DNA of 64,000 nucleotides, taken from assembly GCA_003569705.1 (NCBI GenBank), contig BGOU01000007.1:62001-126000 (forward strand), read 5' to 3'. The notes under the pieces were generated by a model, which was not told the origin of the DNA, ran no database searches, and worked only from the letters and a program-made list of their open reading frames with translations. Of this stretch, positions 21,084 through 56,466 are shown in pieces. The position numbers and the translations under genes were made by a program. The stretch comes from Nitrosarchaeum sp. GTDB taxonomy: Archaea; Thermoproteota; Nitrososphaeria; Nitrososphaerales; Nitrosopumilaceae. Numbering within the stretch: the stretch's first letter is position 1; each line of letters starts with the position of its first letter.

Positions 21084-24000
21084 TTATGAGTTAATTGTTA
21101 ATCCGGCACAGCTAAAAATTGACTTGTCTTTAAATTCGGATTGCCATTTTTGGTGCATTTTGTATGTAAATAACGAATCATCATAATAAGTTACAAAATT
21201 ATCAATTTCACATTCTCTGTATTTCCAAGTCTGCAAAACATCTCCCTTTCCATCATTTACCTCTATGATGACATTAAATAATTCAGGTTTTGCCCCAGCG
21301 TTAACATATCTACTTGCAAGTTCATAGTACCAAGACTTGTCTTTGCTTGGGAGGGATTCCAGATAGAATGCCTTTGCAGAAGAATCAAGTGGAGTTGAAG
21401 GGCGCAGTACAGCAGAGTTTTCATCCGCAATTGGCACAAATTTTGAAAATGTTTTAACAGTTTGTGCTGGTGTAATGTCAGTTCCCTCAAAAGTTATAGT
21501 AAATGAAGCAGCTCGCTCATCATTTGTTGGAAGAATAGTTTGTAGTACATCACTCGCGTTTCTCTTCTCTCTTTCTGAAGGTTTTATCCAACCACTTTGC
21601 TCGAATTTTGATACATGTTCAGTTTTTACACAGAGAGGGACATTTTTTGGAGGTCTGATTAGCAGGTCGTGTCCTTCAGCGCACACTACACCTTCTGATG
21701 GAATACCAACTGCTCTTTGAATCATTGGTGAGATTTTTTTAAGATTTCCAGTAGGATAAAACAGTGGATCTTTCTGCGGAGATGTCTTGAAAGATTCTCC
21801 AGCACAATCCAGAATTGACTGTCCACGAATTTCTGGCTTTAATCCTGGAACATAGCGAATTATCACCATACCGTCATTGTAATAGAGTGCCGAATCATCA
21901 ACATTGCAATCTGCATAAACAACAGAATACAAAATAGTTCCATCACCAGTTACAGTATCAATTCTCACATCAATTAGCTCGGGTGTTTTTCCAGGATTCA
22001 AGTATCTGCTTATGAAGTCATATGCGTCTTTGTGCTGAGCATTTGGAAGGCCGCCTAAAGATATGTTTGAATCACTATGAGTTTCAACTTCTTGTACTAG
22101 GGCGCTAGTTCTTTCATTTTGAAGCTCACCACCATACAAGCTAACGATATTTAGCGTCGCCATGTCATACAGAGATGGGACTGTCACAATATCTTGTTGG
22201 ATGTTTGATTTACGTTGATCAAAATCTACAGAAAAACCATTGCATTGAAATGTTGAAACATCAACAATATCAGATATACCTTTTCTTCCACTAAGTGAAA
22301 AAGAAAGTAGACTATCTGCAGATTTCAAATCAAAGTTTTTGAGATCACAATCAGCATAATTCCAAGACTGTAATACAGTGCCATCACCGCTTACATAATC
22401 AAATGCAACATCAAATGGTTGTGGCTTAGCACCTGGATTGATGAATTTACTGACGACCAGATCATAGTACGGCATCTTGTCTTTGCTTGGCAATGAAGTT
22501 ATTGTAAATTCAGTTGATTTGACATAATCATTTCGTTGCATGGTAGAGAGATATGGTTTTGAAACAAGCGCAATAGAAGATGAACCCGGAACACCTGGTT
22601 CTTCTGGGACTACTGGTGGTTCAGTTATACAATCTGTATCTTCACAACCTACTGGTGGTTCTTCTGGATCTACTGGGGGTTCTTCTGGATCTATTGGTGG
22701 TGTATCTGGACAATGAGGATTATTTGGAGGACATGGTTTGCATCCTGGAGGAGATTCTCCAGGGGCACAATAATCAGGAGGAGATCCAAACGTAGCAGGA
22801 CTTGCGCCCCCACCGGATTCAGTATTAGATATTATTGTCGTGCTAAACTTGACTAATTGCACGCTGGTCTCACTTCTCTGATCAACTTTTGGCGTAAATT
22901 TACCAATAGTGTAAATTTTCAGAGGTTCTGTAAAGTCCCCTCCTGAAAATGTAGTGACAATATTTTTAATTCTAGAATTACTAGATGGAATAAAATCTAC
23001 AGAATAAAGTGATTTTTCAGGTGTTTTTTCTGCAACAAAAGAAGTTCCATCAAATGACAAACCAGTGCATTGGAATATTGTCCTGTCACGATATTCAGGA
23101 TGTGATGTGTCAGTGAATTTTTGTAAAATCAGTGTGTCAGAATAAAATGTTTTGTACAACAACACTTGGCAATCAGAGTATTTCCAGTTTTGAAGTGTGG
23201 TTGCATCCCCAGTCATTACAGATATAGTCACCTGAAATGGTTCAGGTACTTTTCCTGCATTGATGTATTTACTCATTAACTGATAATACCATTGATTGTC
23301 CTTGCCAGGAAGAGAGTCCAAATAGAATTTTGGCTCATCGCCAAATGGTGCATTTGGAATCATCAATTGTATTTCTTCATGAGTGACTGGTCCAAATTTT
23401 GAAAACGAGGTGATGGTTTTTGCTGGCGCAATATCTGCACCCTCAAAATGAACCGAAAAAACCATAGCACGTGATGAGTCATCAGGAACATATGCATAAC
23501 CAGTCTTTAATTCTTTGAGATTCACATCTGGATTGAACAGCAAACCATTGCATTCAAAAAATGTTTTTTCTCGTATCTCCGAACCTGCTTTTTGTATAAA
23601 TTTGTAAACCAAACTATTATCTGTAAAAAATGTGGCATAGTTGTAAGCTTTGCAATCTGTGTATTTCCAGGTCTGCAGCACATTGTTTGCTCCAGTTATT
23701 AGATAAATTGTTGCATCAAATGGTTCCGGTGCTTTTCCAGGATTGACATATCGACTAATTTGTTGATAGTAAGGTTGTTTGTCTTTTGTCGGATTTGCCT
23801 CTAGTGCAAATCTTGGTTTTTCTCCAATAACATTTCCTGGAATTGAAATTGGAAAGTTAGGATTTTTTGAGATTGGGACAAACTTTGAAAAAGAGTCAAA
23901 AGATGTGACATTTCGAAATTCTCCTCCGGAAAATTGTGCTAGTATTCTATCTGCCCTGTTTTCTTTACTTGGCAATATTGGAACAGTCAGTGAGTCTAAT

Positions 24001-24748
24001 TTTCTAATCGATTCTTTAAGAACAAAATCTTGTGTGAAACCAGTACAGCTAAAAACAGTTTTGTCTCTTATTTCAGAAGATAAAGAGCCATCAAATTTGA
24101 CTTTGAATAGATTTTCATCCAGATACGGGGTATACGAATTGATTACACACTTCTGATATTGCCAGAGTTGTAGTGTGGAGCCATCACCAGTTAAAACTTT
24201 AATGTCAATGTCAAATGGTTCTGGTTTTTTTCCAGGATTGATTGATAGTTTAACTAGATTTTCATAAAATAATTTTTTGTCATCGCTTGGAAGTGATTCA
24301 AGTTCCAACCCATATGATATGCCGTTATAATTGAATGGGATGGGAGTACGAATATTCTTGTCAATATGTGTAAATTTTGAAAAAGTATTGAAGGTTTGTT
24401 TTGTTTTAATATCACCGTTAAAAAATCCACAGTAAATGCCATTGCACGATTATTGTCATCTACAATTACTTTTTGTTGGTAGTTTTTTGATTGTTCAGTA
24501 TAAGCTTGGGATATTTCTTTGATAGAAGATTCGTCAGTAGTTTTTCCATGTACCAGATAGGGATTCAGCGGTCTATCAAAATATTTCAGTATTTCAATAC
24601 CAAGTCCTCCCTCAGAGAAATAATATGGATTAGATTCAACTAGATGAACCCCTATTGGTACTTGCTCTTCGGCAAAGATAAAATTAGTAGTCAGAAATGT
24701 AATTAATGTTAAAAAACTTAGCAATACAATCGAATACTTCAATAACAA
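21084..24748 (-). CDS. Large secreted protein with six long repeats (apparent frameshift)
   Basis: Signal peptide in residues 1-26 (ending near NFIFAEE). The corrected protein has 1221 residues and six copies of a module of about 90 residues within a repeat period of roughly 150-190. Each module has a variant of LESLPSKDK, then Y..PGKxPEPFDV, VTGDGTxLQxWKY, Cys, and RDKTxFxCxGL; two Cys per copy could form a disulfide. Spacers often read FSKFxPI. A Pro/Cys-rich linker (about 22.56-22.80 kb) divides the protein, and a CVK...GW module precedes the last repeat. As read, the frame breaks at VDFLTV; one extra A in the run at 24420-24425 would restore VDFFNGDIKTK. It is likely a cell-surface or matrix protein. 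No C-terminal membrane anchor was seen. Confidence 0.75.
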
Positions 24749-25811: not shown

Positions 25812-26426
25812 ATGAATCAAATAATAGAATTTGTAGTGACAGTTATTCTTATTTCAGCATCAGGAGTAATGGCGCCAGGTCCTCTATTTACAGCAAATAT
25901 AGCATATGGGTTACGAGGCGGTGGAAAAGCAGGAATAAAAATGGCAGTAGGCCATACAATTGTAGAATTACCACTTGTTATTTTATTAGGGGTTGGAGTA
26001 TTTTCGTTTAAAATTTTTCCAGAGTTCAGAACACTGATTTCTATTTTAGGAGCAATCATACTTTTCGTGTTTGCAGGAATTCAAATTAAAACAACATTAC
26101 AAATGAAAAAAATAACTTTCAGTCCAAAACACAATGCAGTTCTTGCAGGAATTACACTTAGCGCGTTAAATCCATTTTTTATCATATGGTGGTTGAGTGT
26201 AGGTTTCAAATTAATTTCAGATGCAATGTTGATATGGGCATTTGCAGGAATAGTTATTGTTTTTTTATTGCACATATGGATGGATTTTGTGTGGTTGTAT
26301 TCAATTGCATATCTTAGTTCTAAAAGTTCAAAAATTATTTCAAATAGAAATTATAAAATTCTGATGATTGGTTTGAGTTTAATGTTGGTATATTTTGGAA
26401 TATCATTCATATCAGATGTCATTTAA
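25812..26426 (+). CDS. LysE-family transporter
   Basis: A 204-residue membrane protein with six hydrophobic segments. The opening block SGVMAPGPLFTANIAYGLRGG and the central TLSALNPFFIIWWLSVG are typical of LysE/RhtB-type exporters of amino acids or small solutes. The substrate cannot be read from sequence. It starts 60 bases after the PAC2 gene and converges on the next gene, overlapping it by 4 bases. Confidence 0.85.
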   Translation: MNQIIEFVVTVILISASGVMAPGPLFTANIAYGLRGGGKAGIKMAVGHTIVELPLVILLGVGVFSFKIFPEFRTLISILGAIILFVFAGIQIKTTLQMKKITFSPKHNAVLAGITLSALNPFFIIWWLSVGFKLISDAMLIWAFAGIVIVFLLHIWMDFVWLYSIAYLSSKSSKIISNRNYKILMIGLSLMLVYFGISFISDVI

Positions 26427-26665
26427 CCGCAATCTAAAATTTCAACTTCTGGTTTACAATTAGCATCAAATAAATTAATTTTTTCAACTAAAACGTCGCA
26501 AAATTCAGGATCAAGTGATTTTTCATATGATTTTAAATCAGCCATAATTGCAATATGTTGTATCACACAAGAATATACTGTAAATCCAAGAATTATTCCA
26601 ACAATAAAAATACATACAGAGATGAGAATTAAATTTCTAATGGTTTTAGTTTTTTGTAATGTCAA
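26423..26665 (-). CDS. Small single-span membrane protein
   Basis: An 80-residue protein with one hydrophobic segment (about 11-33) and a short Cys-containing domain outside it (SLDPEFCDVLVEKI, then two more Cys at the C-terminus). It starts at a TTG inside the last codons of the upstream alba gene (20-base overlap), which suggests co-expression. I recognise no family. Confidence 0.5.
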   Translation of the reverse strand: MTLQKTKTIRNLILISVCIFIVGIILGFTVYSCVIQHIAIMADLKSYEKSLDPEFCDVLVEKINLFDANCKPEVEILDCG

Positions 26666-27182
26666 TTTCTATTGTAGAGACATTACGTAGTTTACCGTCT
26701 TGAGATGTAAGCGAATCAGATAAAATTCTAACATCACTGACGACATATCCAACAGTGTTCATTCTTTTAACAATCATTTGAGATACATCAACTGCCTGAG
26801 TAATTCTTTGACCTCTGGCCTTAATTGTAACGGTGTGTCTTGTTGAAAGTTGTGTTAAAGTAGCTGCAACATATGTCAATATCGGTTTAGTACCAACAAA
26901 AATCACATCACGGTCTTCAAGATCAGGTTTAGTTTCAGTTGAGGGTTCACTAACAGGTGGAGATAATTGTGGTTCTGATTCAGGTGGAGATAATTGTGGT
27001 TCTGATTCAGGTGGAGATAATTGTGGTTCTGATTCAGGTGGAGATAATTGTGGTTCTGATTCAGGTGGAGATAATTGTGGTTCTGATTCAGGTGGAGATA
27101 ATTGTGGTTCTGACGATACATCGGCATCATGAAATTCAGATAAAATATCTTCTGCGTCTTTAGATTTTTTGGGGTCGCTCAA
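26646..27182 (-). CDS. Alba-type DNA/RNA-binding protein with a repeat-rich N-terminal extension
   Basis: The last 86 or so residues are an Alba domain: VIFVGTKPILTYVAATLTQL, then TIKARGQRITQAVDVSQMIV. Alba is a nucleic-acid-binding chromatin protein of archaea, normally about 90-100 residues. Here about 90 residues precede it, including six tandem nine-residue units of SEPQLSPPE type encoded by a 27-bp DNA repeat. The extension is acidic and Pro-rich, so it is likely disordered and may tune DNA bridging or partner binding (inference). The 80-residue membrane gene overlaps its end. Confidence 0.88.
   Translation of the reverse strand: MSDPKKSKDAEDILSEFHDADVSSEPQLSPPESEPQLSPPESEPQLSPPESEPQLSPPESEPQLSPPESEPQLSPPVSEPSTETKPDLEDRDVIFVGTKPILTYVAATLTQLSTRHTVTIKARGQRITQAVDVSQMIVKRMNTVGYVVSDVRILSDSLTSQDGKLRNVSTIEIDITKN
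26954..27115. repeat. 27-bp tandem repeat, six copies (minisatellite in the alba gene)
   Basis: Six head-to-tail copies begin at 26954, 26981, 27008, 27035, 27062 and 27089. They are identical as read except for the last two bases of the sixth. Each is 27 bases, so copy-number changes keep the reading frame of the Alba N-terminal extension. The identity of the copies points to recent expansion. Confidence 0.97.
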
Positions 27183-27223: not shown

Positions 27224-27493
27224 TTAATTTTTGAGGTCCTCACGTTTGATGTATTCTTCAAAGATTTTTTCAACTTCATCATCATTTTTGCTGTCCTTTA
27301 CCTGATTTACTAGATCTTCTTCTTCAATTTCATAACAATTTAGGAAATCTTGTGAATCTTTGAACAACAAAAGAACTTTGTTCTTAAACACATAATGGTA
27401 GAGTTTTTCTTTTTCCATTAGTTCTGGCTTTATGTTGATGCCGTTATCATCGGAAGATACAGGATAAACCACATTATTGTTTAAAATACTCAA
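27224..27493 (-). CDS. Small acidic protein, unknown function
   Basis: An 89-residue acidic protein with no signal or membrane segment. Its C-terminal half is rich in Glu, Asp and Lys. It lies 41 bases upstream of alba on the same strand and divergently from DNA polymerase IV (51-base gap). I recognise no family. Confidence 0.5.
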   Translation of the reverse strand: MSILNNNVVYPVSSDDNGINIKPELMEKEKLYHYVFKNKVLLLFKDSQDFLNCYEIEEEDLVNQVKDSKNDDEVEKIFEEYIKREDLKN

Positions 27494-27544: not shown

Positions 27545-28638
27545 TTGGGAGCTAGAGTAGTTTTCCACATAGATTTTGATTATTTCTTTGCTCAGTGTGA
27601 GGAGATACGTATTCCAGATCTAAAATCAAAACCAGTATGTGTTTGTGTCTTTTCAGATAGGGGAGGAGACAGCGGGGCAATTGCAACTGCAAATTACATA
27701 GCCAGAGAATTTGGGGTGAAATCAGGAATGCCAATTAGTTTTGCAAAAAAAGACTAGAGGAAAAAAAAGATGCCATTTTTCTCCCAGTTGATTTTGATTA
27801 TTATTTAGAAATTTCTGAGAAAGCCATGAGTATCATAAAAGAAAATGCAGATGTTTTTGAATACGTAGGAAAAGATGAAGCGTATTTGGATGTCACAAAT
27901 AGGGTAGAGGAAAATTTTGACAAGGCAAGTCATTTGGCACAACAAATTAAAAACTCCATCAGAGACAAAGTGAAACTTAGTTGCTCCATAGGTATTTCAT
28001 CAAATAAATTGATTGCAAAAATTGCATCAGATTTTAGAAAACCAGATGGATTAACAGTGGTATCGCCGGAAAAAGTTGAAGAGTTTTTAGAAAAATTAAA
28101 GATCCGAGCAATACCAGGTATTGGAAAAAAAACAGAAGAACAACTCATCCAGATGAATCTTGAAACAATTAAAGATCTTAAAAAATTAGATGTGTTTACT
28201 TTGAATAAAGAATTTGGGAGAAAACATGGAACTTACATATTCAATGCAGTTAGAGGAATTGATGATGAACCAGTAAAAGAAAGAGAGGCAAGCATTCAAT
28301 ATAGTAAACTCAGTACTCTAAAAAAAGATTCAAAAGATTATGATTTTTTGGCAGAAAATCTTATGGAATTATGTAGAGAACTACATGAAGTAATTCAAAA
28401 AAACAACAGACGATTCAAATCAATAGGAATACAATTCATTCAATCGGATTTAACAAACAAAACAAAATCAAGAATGTTAAAAAATCCTACATCAAGTCTA
28501 GAAGAATTACAAAAAAATGCAGACCAGTTGTTAAAAGAAGCATTAGAAGATCAAAAAAACACAGTTAGAAGATTAGGGGTAAAAGTTTCAGAACTTTCAG
28601 AAATTCGCGGTCAAAGTGATATTACTAGTTATTTTTAG
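27545..28638 (+). CDS. dinB: DNA polymerase IV, Y family (apparent frameshift)
   Basis: A translesion polymerase. The N-terminus has [16 protein letters not shown] (first catalytic Asp). Catalytic Asp-Glu is in [11 protein letters not shown], followed by [18 protein letters not shown], the helix-hairpin-helix [13 protein letters not shown] and the little-finger domain. As read, the frame stops at 27757 after FAKKD. One extra A in the run at 27745-27751 would give [20 protein letters not shown] and a 364-residue enzyme of normal length. The start is TTG at 27545. The 3' end overlaps the sortase-like gene by 14 bases (convergent). Confidence 0.93.
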
Positions 28639-56121: not shown

Positions 56122-56466
56122 TTATTTTTTAAATTGTATCAGATTTGATGCTCTTTGAATACACACCAGTGCATCTTCATGCTTACCCAGTTGCTTAAGG
56201 GCATAACCTTTGTTTTTTAATGCAACTAGATCATTTGGTTCAATATCCAAAACCTTAGAATAACACTCTAGAGATTCTTCCATCTTGGCAAGTTTGATAA
56301 GAGCAAATCCTTTGTTCTTCAATGCCAATAAATTATTTGGTTCAACAGCCAATACTTCATCATAACACTCTATGGATTCAGAGTACTTACCAAGTTGATT
56401 AAGGTCATATCCTTTTCTATTCAATACCTCCACTGACTCAGATTTTTTCCTACTCAGAAAATTCAT
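56122..56466 (-). CDS. Tetratricopeptide repeat (TPR) protein
   Basis: A 114-residue protein with three TPR units of 34 residues. Units share the pattern LNRKGYDLNQLGKYSESIEC, ALKNKGFALIKLAKMEESLE and ALKNKGYALKQLGKHEDALV. TPRs form helical scaffolds for protein contacts; partners are unknown. The second and third units are similar at the DNA level, which suggests recent repeat duplication. Confidence 0.88.
   Translation of the reverse strand: MNFLSRKKSESVEVLNRKGYDLNQLGKYSESIECYDEVLAVEPNNLLALKNKGFALIKLAKMEESLECYSKVLDIEPNDLVALKNKGYALKQLGKHEDALVCIQRASNLIQFKK

Follow-up and report, generated by a model that had tools for sequence, protein, structure and literature searches.

In most Nitrosopumilaceae, one syntenic orthologue of the chromatin protein Alba bears an acidic N-terminal tail, as read from the open frames, and in many of these genomes we found that the tail is built of short in-frame tandem repeats whose sequence and number shift fast between species. 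The case described here lies in a 64,000-nucleotide window (the whole stretch of DNA analysed) of a Nitrosarchaeum genome (1.46 Mb in 10 contigs, 97% complete; relatives: Nitrosarchaeum, Nitrosopumilaceae). Its Alba gene is an open reading frame of 178 aa with a TTG start on the reverse strand (26646-27182), delimited by its translation, its profile matches and its conserved start. Read from the N-terminus, all on the same strand, it encodes a tip, MSDPKKSKDAEDILSEF (aa 1-17; 27132-27182), conserved by column counts over 54 orthologues; a short separating stretch; the 27-bp array, with unit SEPQLSPPE (26954-27113); a short, acidic and non-repeated linker (26910-26953); and the Alba domain (aa 92-177; 26652-26909). 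The TTG start is supported because the start and its context are conserved in relatives: orthologues from Nitrosarchaeum and Nitrosopumilus have TTG followed by AG(C/T) at the matching position, where other genera have ATG.

The domain matches Pfam Alba (PF01918) over aa 93-153 (E 7.9e-12; 45.2 bits, above the gathering cut-off of 25) and Alba chains in the PDB (E 4.8e-16 and weaker). The NCBIfam AlbA models NF003088 and TIGR00285 also match (E 2.5e-22 and 6e-21), with scores below their cut-offs (78.9 vs 90 and 74.3 vs 88.25 bits). The protein is therefore an AlbA homologue that is not named as the NCBI equivalog. The exact frame, the array called by TRF and these domain matches bear out the first-pass annotation, which had placed an Alba with a minisatellite-encoded tail at this locus; the conserved tip, the acidic charge of the tail and the loss of the lysine at the K16 position, all described below, go beyond it.

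TRF reports the array with a period of 27, 5.9 copies, 100% matches, no indels and a score of 320, the highest of any array in the window. It comprises five full SEPQLSPPE units and a sixth ending in V, so the six in-frame units initially described are there, except that they are identical rather than near-identical. The 27-mer was found nowhere else in the 1.46-Mb genome when up to 3 mismatches were allowed. With units that are in frame, homogenised within the genome and unequal in number between close relatives (species with flanks 94-97% identical), the array behaves as a coding minisatellite. Two other repeats occur in the window: a 21-bp coding repeat (22639-22701) encodes a PPIDPEEPPVDPEEPP stretch in a large protein (ORF 21084-24308, reverse strand), and a 102-bp repeat (56182-56425; 2.4 diverged copies) has the 34-residue period seen in TPR-like proteins.

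To place the tail within the lineage, we searched for Alba in 18 genus, 250 family and 400 class genomes and found it in all good genomes. Since these collections hold one genome per species, all tail comparisons are between species. Long tails, mostly with arrays, occur in Nitrosarchaeum, Nitrosopumilus, Nitrosopelagicus and the relatives of Cenarchaeum; Nitrosotenuis has tails of 25-45 aa without arrays, and the tail is absent from Nitrosotalea-like genomes and from the other families sampled. A second Alba gene in the home genome, with a domain 49% identical, has no tail, and we found no long tail on the second Alba of the family genomes or on outgroup Albas. The tail, first described as unusual, is so relative to Alba in general, whereas in Nitrosopumilaceae it is the norm for this paralogue, with variation in the unit only. 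The gene order is the same in most genomes (divergent dpo4, up89, Alba, tm80, convergent lysE), which indicates that the tail is a derived feature of a long-established chromosomal gene and did not arrive by foreign insertion. The Dpo4 encoded next to it was used for a tree, made to ask about a single origin of the tail; tail states group by clade in this tree, with four changes for arrays and with the short-tailed Nitrosotenuis group as one clade, a pattern compatible with one origin or with several. Our literature search for a tailed thaumarchaeal Alba returned nothing on point within open-licence papers, a weak sign of novelty, and a repeat-built acidic arm on Alba appears to be undescribed. 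Three records stand apart. In a Cenarchaeum genome (L101, 659-2767) the Alba tail is 617 aa long and repeats a 72-bp unit about 20 times; the unit includes a Cys-Cys motif (HGDGSCCSESRDLEAPAPEQAAPA), in contrast to the Pro/Glu tails elsewhere. In the Nitrosarchaeum MAG G009 (L016 / L066), tail and Alba domain lie in different frames, through an assembly error or a lesion. Finally, a contig deposited as a gammaproteobacterium (L092, BMAH01000059.1) has an Alba locus that resembles those of Nitrosotenuis and shows the complete archaeal gene order; it is a mislabelled or mixed record.

The repeat units turn over quickly. Tandem arrays were detected by TRF in 56 out of 89 distinct loci, with periods of 12-90 bp that are all multiples of 3. 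In fifteen 27-bp arrays, units from one genome are 99.6% identical to each other, vs 79.6% for units from different species. One synonymous difference, GAACCC in all copies of L008 vs GAACCA in L009, is carried through the whole array, which shows that homogenisation acts at the DNA level. The first-pass annotation had proposed a tail that expands while keeping its frame and a comparison of copy number among related species; unit sequence and copy number do shift fast between species, and tail length is unequal in all 10 of the 10 closest species pairs (flanks 94-97% identical; for example 76 vs 105 aa, 148 vs 103 and 83 vs 67). The loci L005, L012 and L014 have 4, 3 and 1 units, respectively, and the range extends from 1 to about 14 units of 27 bp. 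Long tails without repeats also occur (L049, L074, L086 and L135). Together with the single-unit tail and the 25-45-aa tails, these indicate that no particular length is required. A search of viral contigs for further alleles found none, and two contigs of one genome (G170), identical in the region and both ending in the array, are uninformative on alleles.

Other properties of the tail stay constant. Its net charge is negative in 54 out of 54 complete tails (range -3 to -99; -19 in the home protein), opposite to the positive charge of the Alba domain, and a Pro/Glu-rich composition is reached by different units in most genera. The tip follows an amphipathic pattern, D-A-x-D/E-I/V-L-x-E-F, with I/V and L/F/Y in nearly all rows and with A and E in 54 out of 54, a count that is partly circular because the tip pattern was used to locate the 54 protein starts, so that A, and E in most rows, were partly selected for. 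One locus (L139) has a short acidic tail with no clear tip. The tail is predicted to be a disordered arm: in a model of L112, a natural up89-Alba fusion from a Cenarchaeum MAG, the Alba domain and up89 fold and the tail is mostly below pLDDT 50, with a low-confidence short helix on the tip.

The tailed copies also differ at the position that is Lys16, the acetylated residue, in Sulfolobus Alba1 (the first K in the GKKP motif). The home Alba has GTKP instead, with Thr98 (26889-26891, reverse strand) aligned with Lys16. This lysine is lost in 77 out of 79 tailed copies, whereas 34 copies without a tail, either paralogues or outgroup Albas, retain it, as do all 10 tailless Nitrosotalea orthologues. 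Its loss may simply reflect shared ancestry. Alignments that mixed up89 with tailed Alba rows (A1 and A3) misaligned at look-alike helices and were set aside; alignment A4 comprises domain-only rows. Work on Alba acetylation is cited in PMC11894787, according to which Alba bridges DNA and Alba2 heterodimers limit filaments.

We propose, with about even confidence and from comparison of sequences, that these proteins are a family form of Alba in which an acidic spacer, driven by slippage and bearing a conserved tip, tunes the assemblies of Alba with DNA. The N-terminus of Alba would have become a long disordered acidic arm, its body made of tandemly duplicated short in-frame units and its tip conserved. 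Replication slippage or unequal recombination would add, remove and homogenise units, so that unit sequence and length turn over by species as the Pro/Glu-rich, net negative composition and the tip are kept. The arm would most likely act by competing with DNA for the basic surface of Alba, much as acidic tails cover the DNA-binding surface of HMG-box proteins, and by surrounding Alba-DNA filaments with a repulsive layer, so that binding and bridging are weakened; it would also serve as a spacer that offers the tip to a partner. The reach and charge of the arm would then depend on copy number, and the effect could be tuned further by dimers that combine tailed and tailless Alba.

Neutral drift, which we consider somewhat unlikely, is the main rival: a disordered N-terminus would merely tolerate slippage-prone DNA, and the array would wander with no consequence provided that the frame is preserved. 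The spread from 1 to about 14 units, and even to a 617-aa tail, with no favoured copy number, and the wholesale replacement of units between genera are what such drift would produce. The negative charge of every complete tail examined, the convergence of different units on Pro and Glu in most genera and the retention of the tip beyond the array speak against it, as does the lack of long tails on outgroup Albas and on the other Alba that these genomes encode. A bolder extension of the tuning proposal, which we regard as rather improbable, is that Nitrosopumilaceae swapped Lys16-type control of one Alba for a hypermutable, length-tunable acidic arm with a docking tip, copy number being an evolvable, perhaps within-population, rheostat of chromatin compaction. 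If true, this arm would be a prokaryotic counterpart of the disordered tails of chromatin proteins. We think it unlikely that the array is a contingency locus, whose copy number shifts within one population to give differing chromatin states and whose variability is itself selected. Serial identical units and unequal lengths in all near species pairs would suit such a locus, but in-frame changes should have graded rather than on/off effects, and turnover by slippage explains the pattern without selection for variability.

The neighbouring genes bear on a further alternative. A conserved orphan small protein, up89 (27224-27493, reverse strand), identified from synteny, homologues and an AF2 model, lies 41 nt upstream of the Alba start. 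The small protein tm80 (26423-26665, reverse strand), with a hydrophobic N-terminal stretch, overlaps the 3' end of Alba and is syntenic by ORF position. A divergent Y-family DNA polymerase gene (Dpo4-like; 27545-28638, forward strand) and a convergent LysE-type translocator gene (25812-26426, forward strand), both assigned by profile match, are likewise syntenic. The Dpo4-like gene is split in two frames because one A is lacking from an A-run (7 here vs 8 in L004 and L056) just ahead of a stop at ~27757; the break is either a true frameshift or an error in sequencing the homopolymer. A sigma-70 promoter scan scored below the shuffle mean, with a model that is not apt for archaea. Homologues of up89 were found in 15 out of 17 genomes, and they share the motif YHC..F/Y.D....CYEIEE and adjoin Alba in several families. 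Modelled alone, up89 reaches pLDDT 85; the model has no PDB fold match with E <= 0.001, and the protein has no convincing Pfam family. We rejected its identification as PriX (E 0.032, below the cut-off, in only 2 out of 37 members, and no fold match). That the tail or its tip is a dedicated docking arm for up89 is suggested by their strict adjacency and by three Cenarchaeum-type genomes (L110, L111 and L112) in which up89 is fused in frame to the tailed Alba, with no stop between them and the internal ATG kept. Nevertheless, we consider this very unlikely: up89 also accompanies tailless Albas in other families and is thus not specific to the tail, which weakens it as a tail-specific partner, and the fused model has no confident arrangement (pTM 0.39).

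Still less probable is a role of the repeats as DNA, for example as binding sites or a nucleoid signal: the units are very regular and occupy a single genomic place, but the DNA units of other genera share neither sequence nor length with them (12-90 bp; composition from AT-rich to GC-rich), and it is the protein frame, charge and tip that are kept across genera. That the arrays are an assembly artefact, which the first-pass annotation had named as grounds for discarding the idea, has a negligible probability, because perfect repeats do tend to collapse or expand falsely but arrays are present in single-contig genomes (G001, G002, G029, G089, G091, G175 and G176) and many independent assemblies break there. 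Contig ends fall within 250 bp upstream of the domain, on the array side, in 24 out of 80 loci, and within 500 bp downstream in 0 out of 80. Such breaks occur in 24 out of 60 loci of repeat genera vs 0 out of 20 of non-repeat genera (Fisher p = 4e-4), and most truncated tails begin inside an array. This pile-up of contig ends on the array side only indicates that the arrays do exist and that assemblers struggle with them; for a given short-read genome, the exact count of units is uncertain and should be treated with caution.

Compared with Alba of the Sso10b / Alba1 type, the protein has the same domain (PF01918) at full length and differs by its acidic repeat tail of about 90 aa, the Thr at the K16 position and its NCBIfam scores below cut-off. 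Mycobacterial HupB, likewise a nucleoid protein, has a repeat tail that is of low complexity, specific to its lineage and reported to be indispensable for HupB function (PMC5676037). The HupB domain is unrelated to that of Alba, and its tail is C-terminal, basic (PAKK/KAAK) and predicted to add DNA contacts, whereas the Alba tail is N-terminal and acidic. A 27-bp deletion in the tail is reported for M. bovis hupB. The hupB restriction fragment is of unequal length in M. tuberculosis and M. bovis. HMG-box proteins similarly combine a basic DNA-binding domain with a disordered acidic tail, which, according to PMC4207994, occludes the DNA-binding surface. Their fold is unrelated, their tail is C-terminal and they have no homogenised minisatellites, so that the Alba arm would resemble these tails in function by analogy. 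The yeast RNA polymerase II CTD is also a disordered repeat tail, and according to PMC4882425 instability of the DNA that encodes it may influence its length; it consists of heptads of conserved sequence, whereas in the Alba tail the unit itself is replaced between species.

One practical consequence of the array is that many short-read assemblies of Nitrosopumilaceae break at this gene. With 1 to 14 units attached to an almost unchanged domain, the family also offers a natural length series in which the tuning of a chromatin protein by disordered tails can be tested. Few archaea are as abundant in the sea and in fresh water as Nitrosopumilaceae, and their chromatin is almost unstudied. Our findings suggest that a chromatin protein of these ammonia-oxidising archaea carries an adjustable arm, whose repeats are reshuffled while the tip and the DNA-binding part stay constant.
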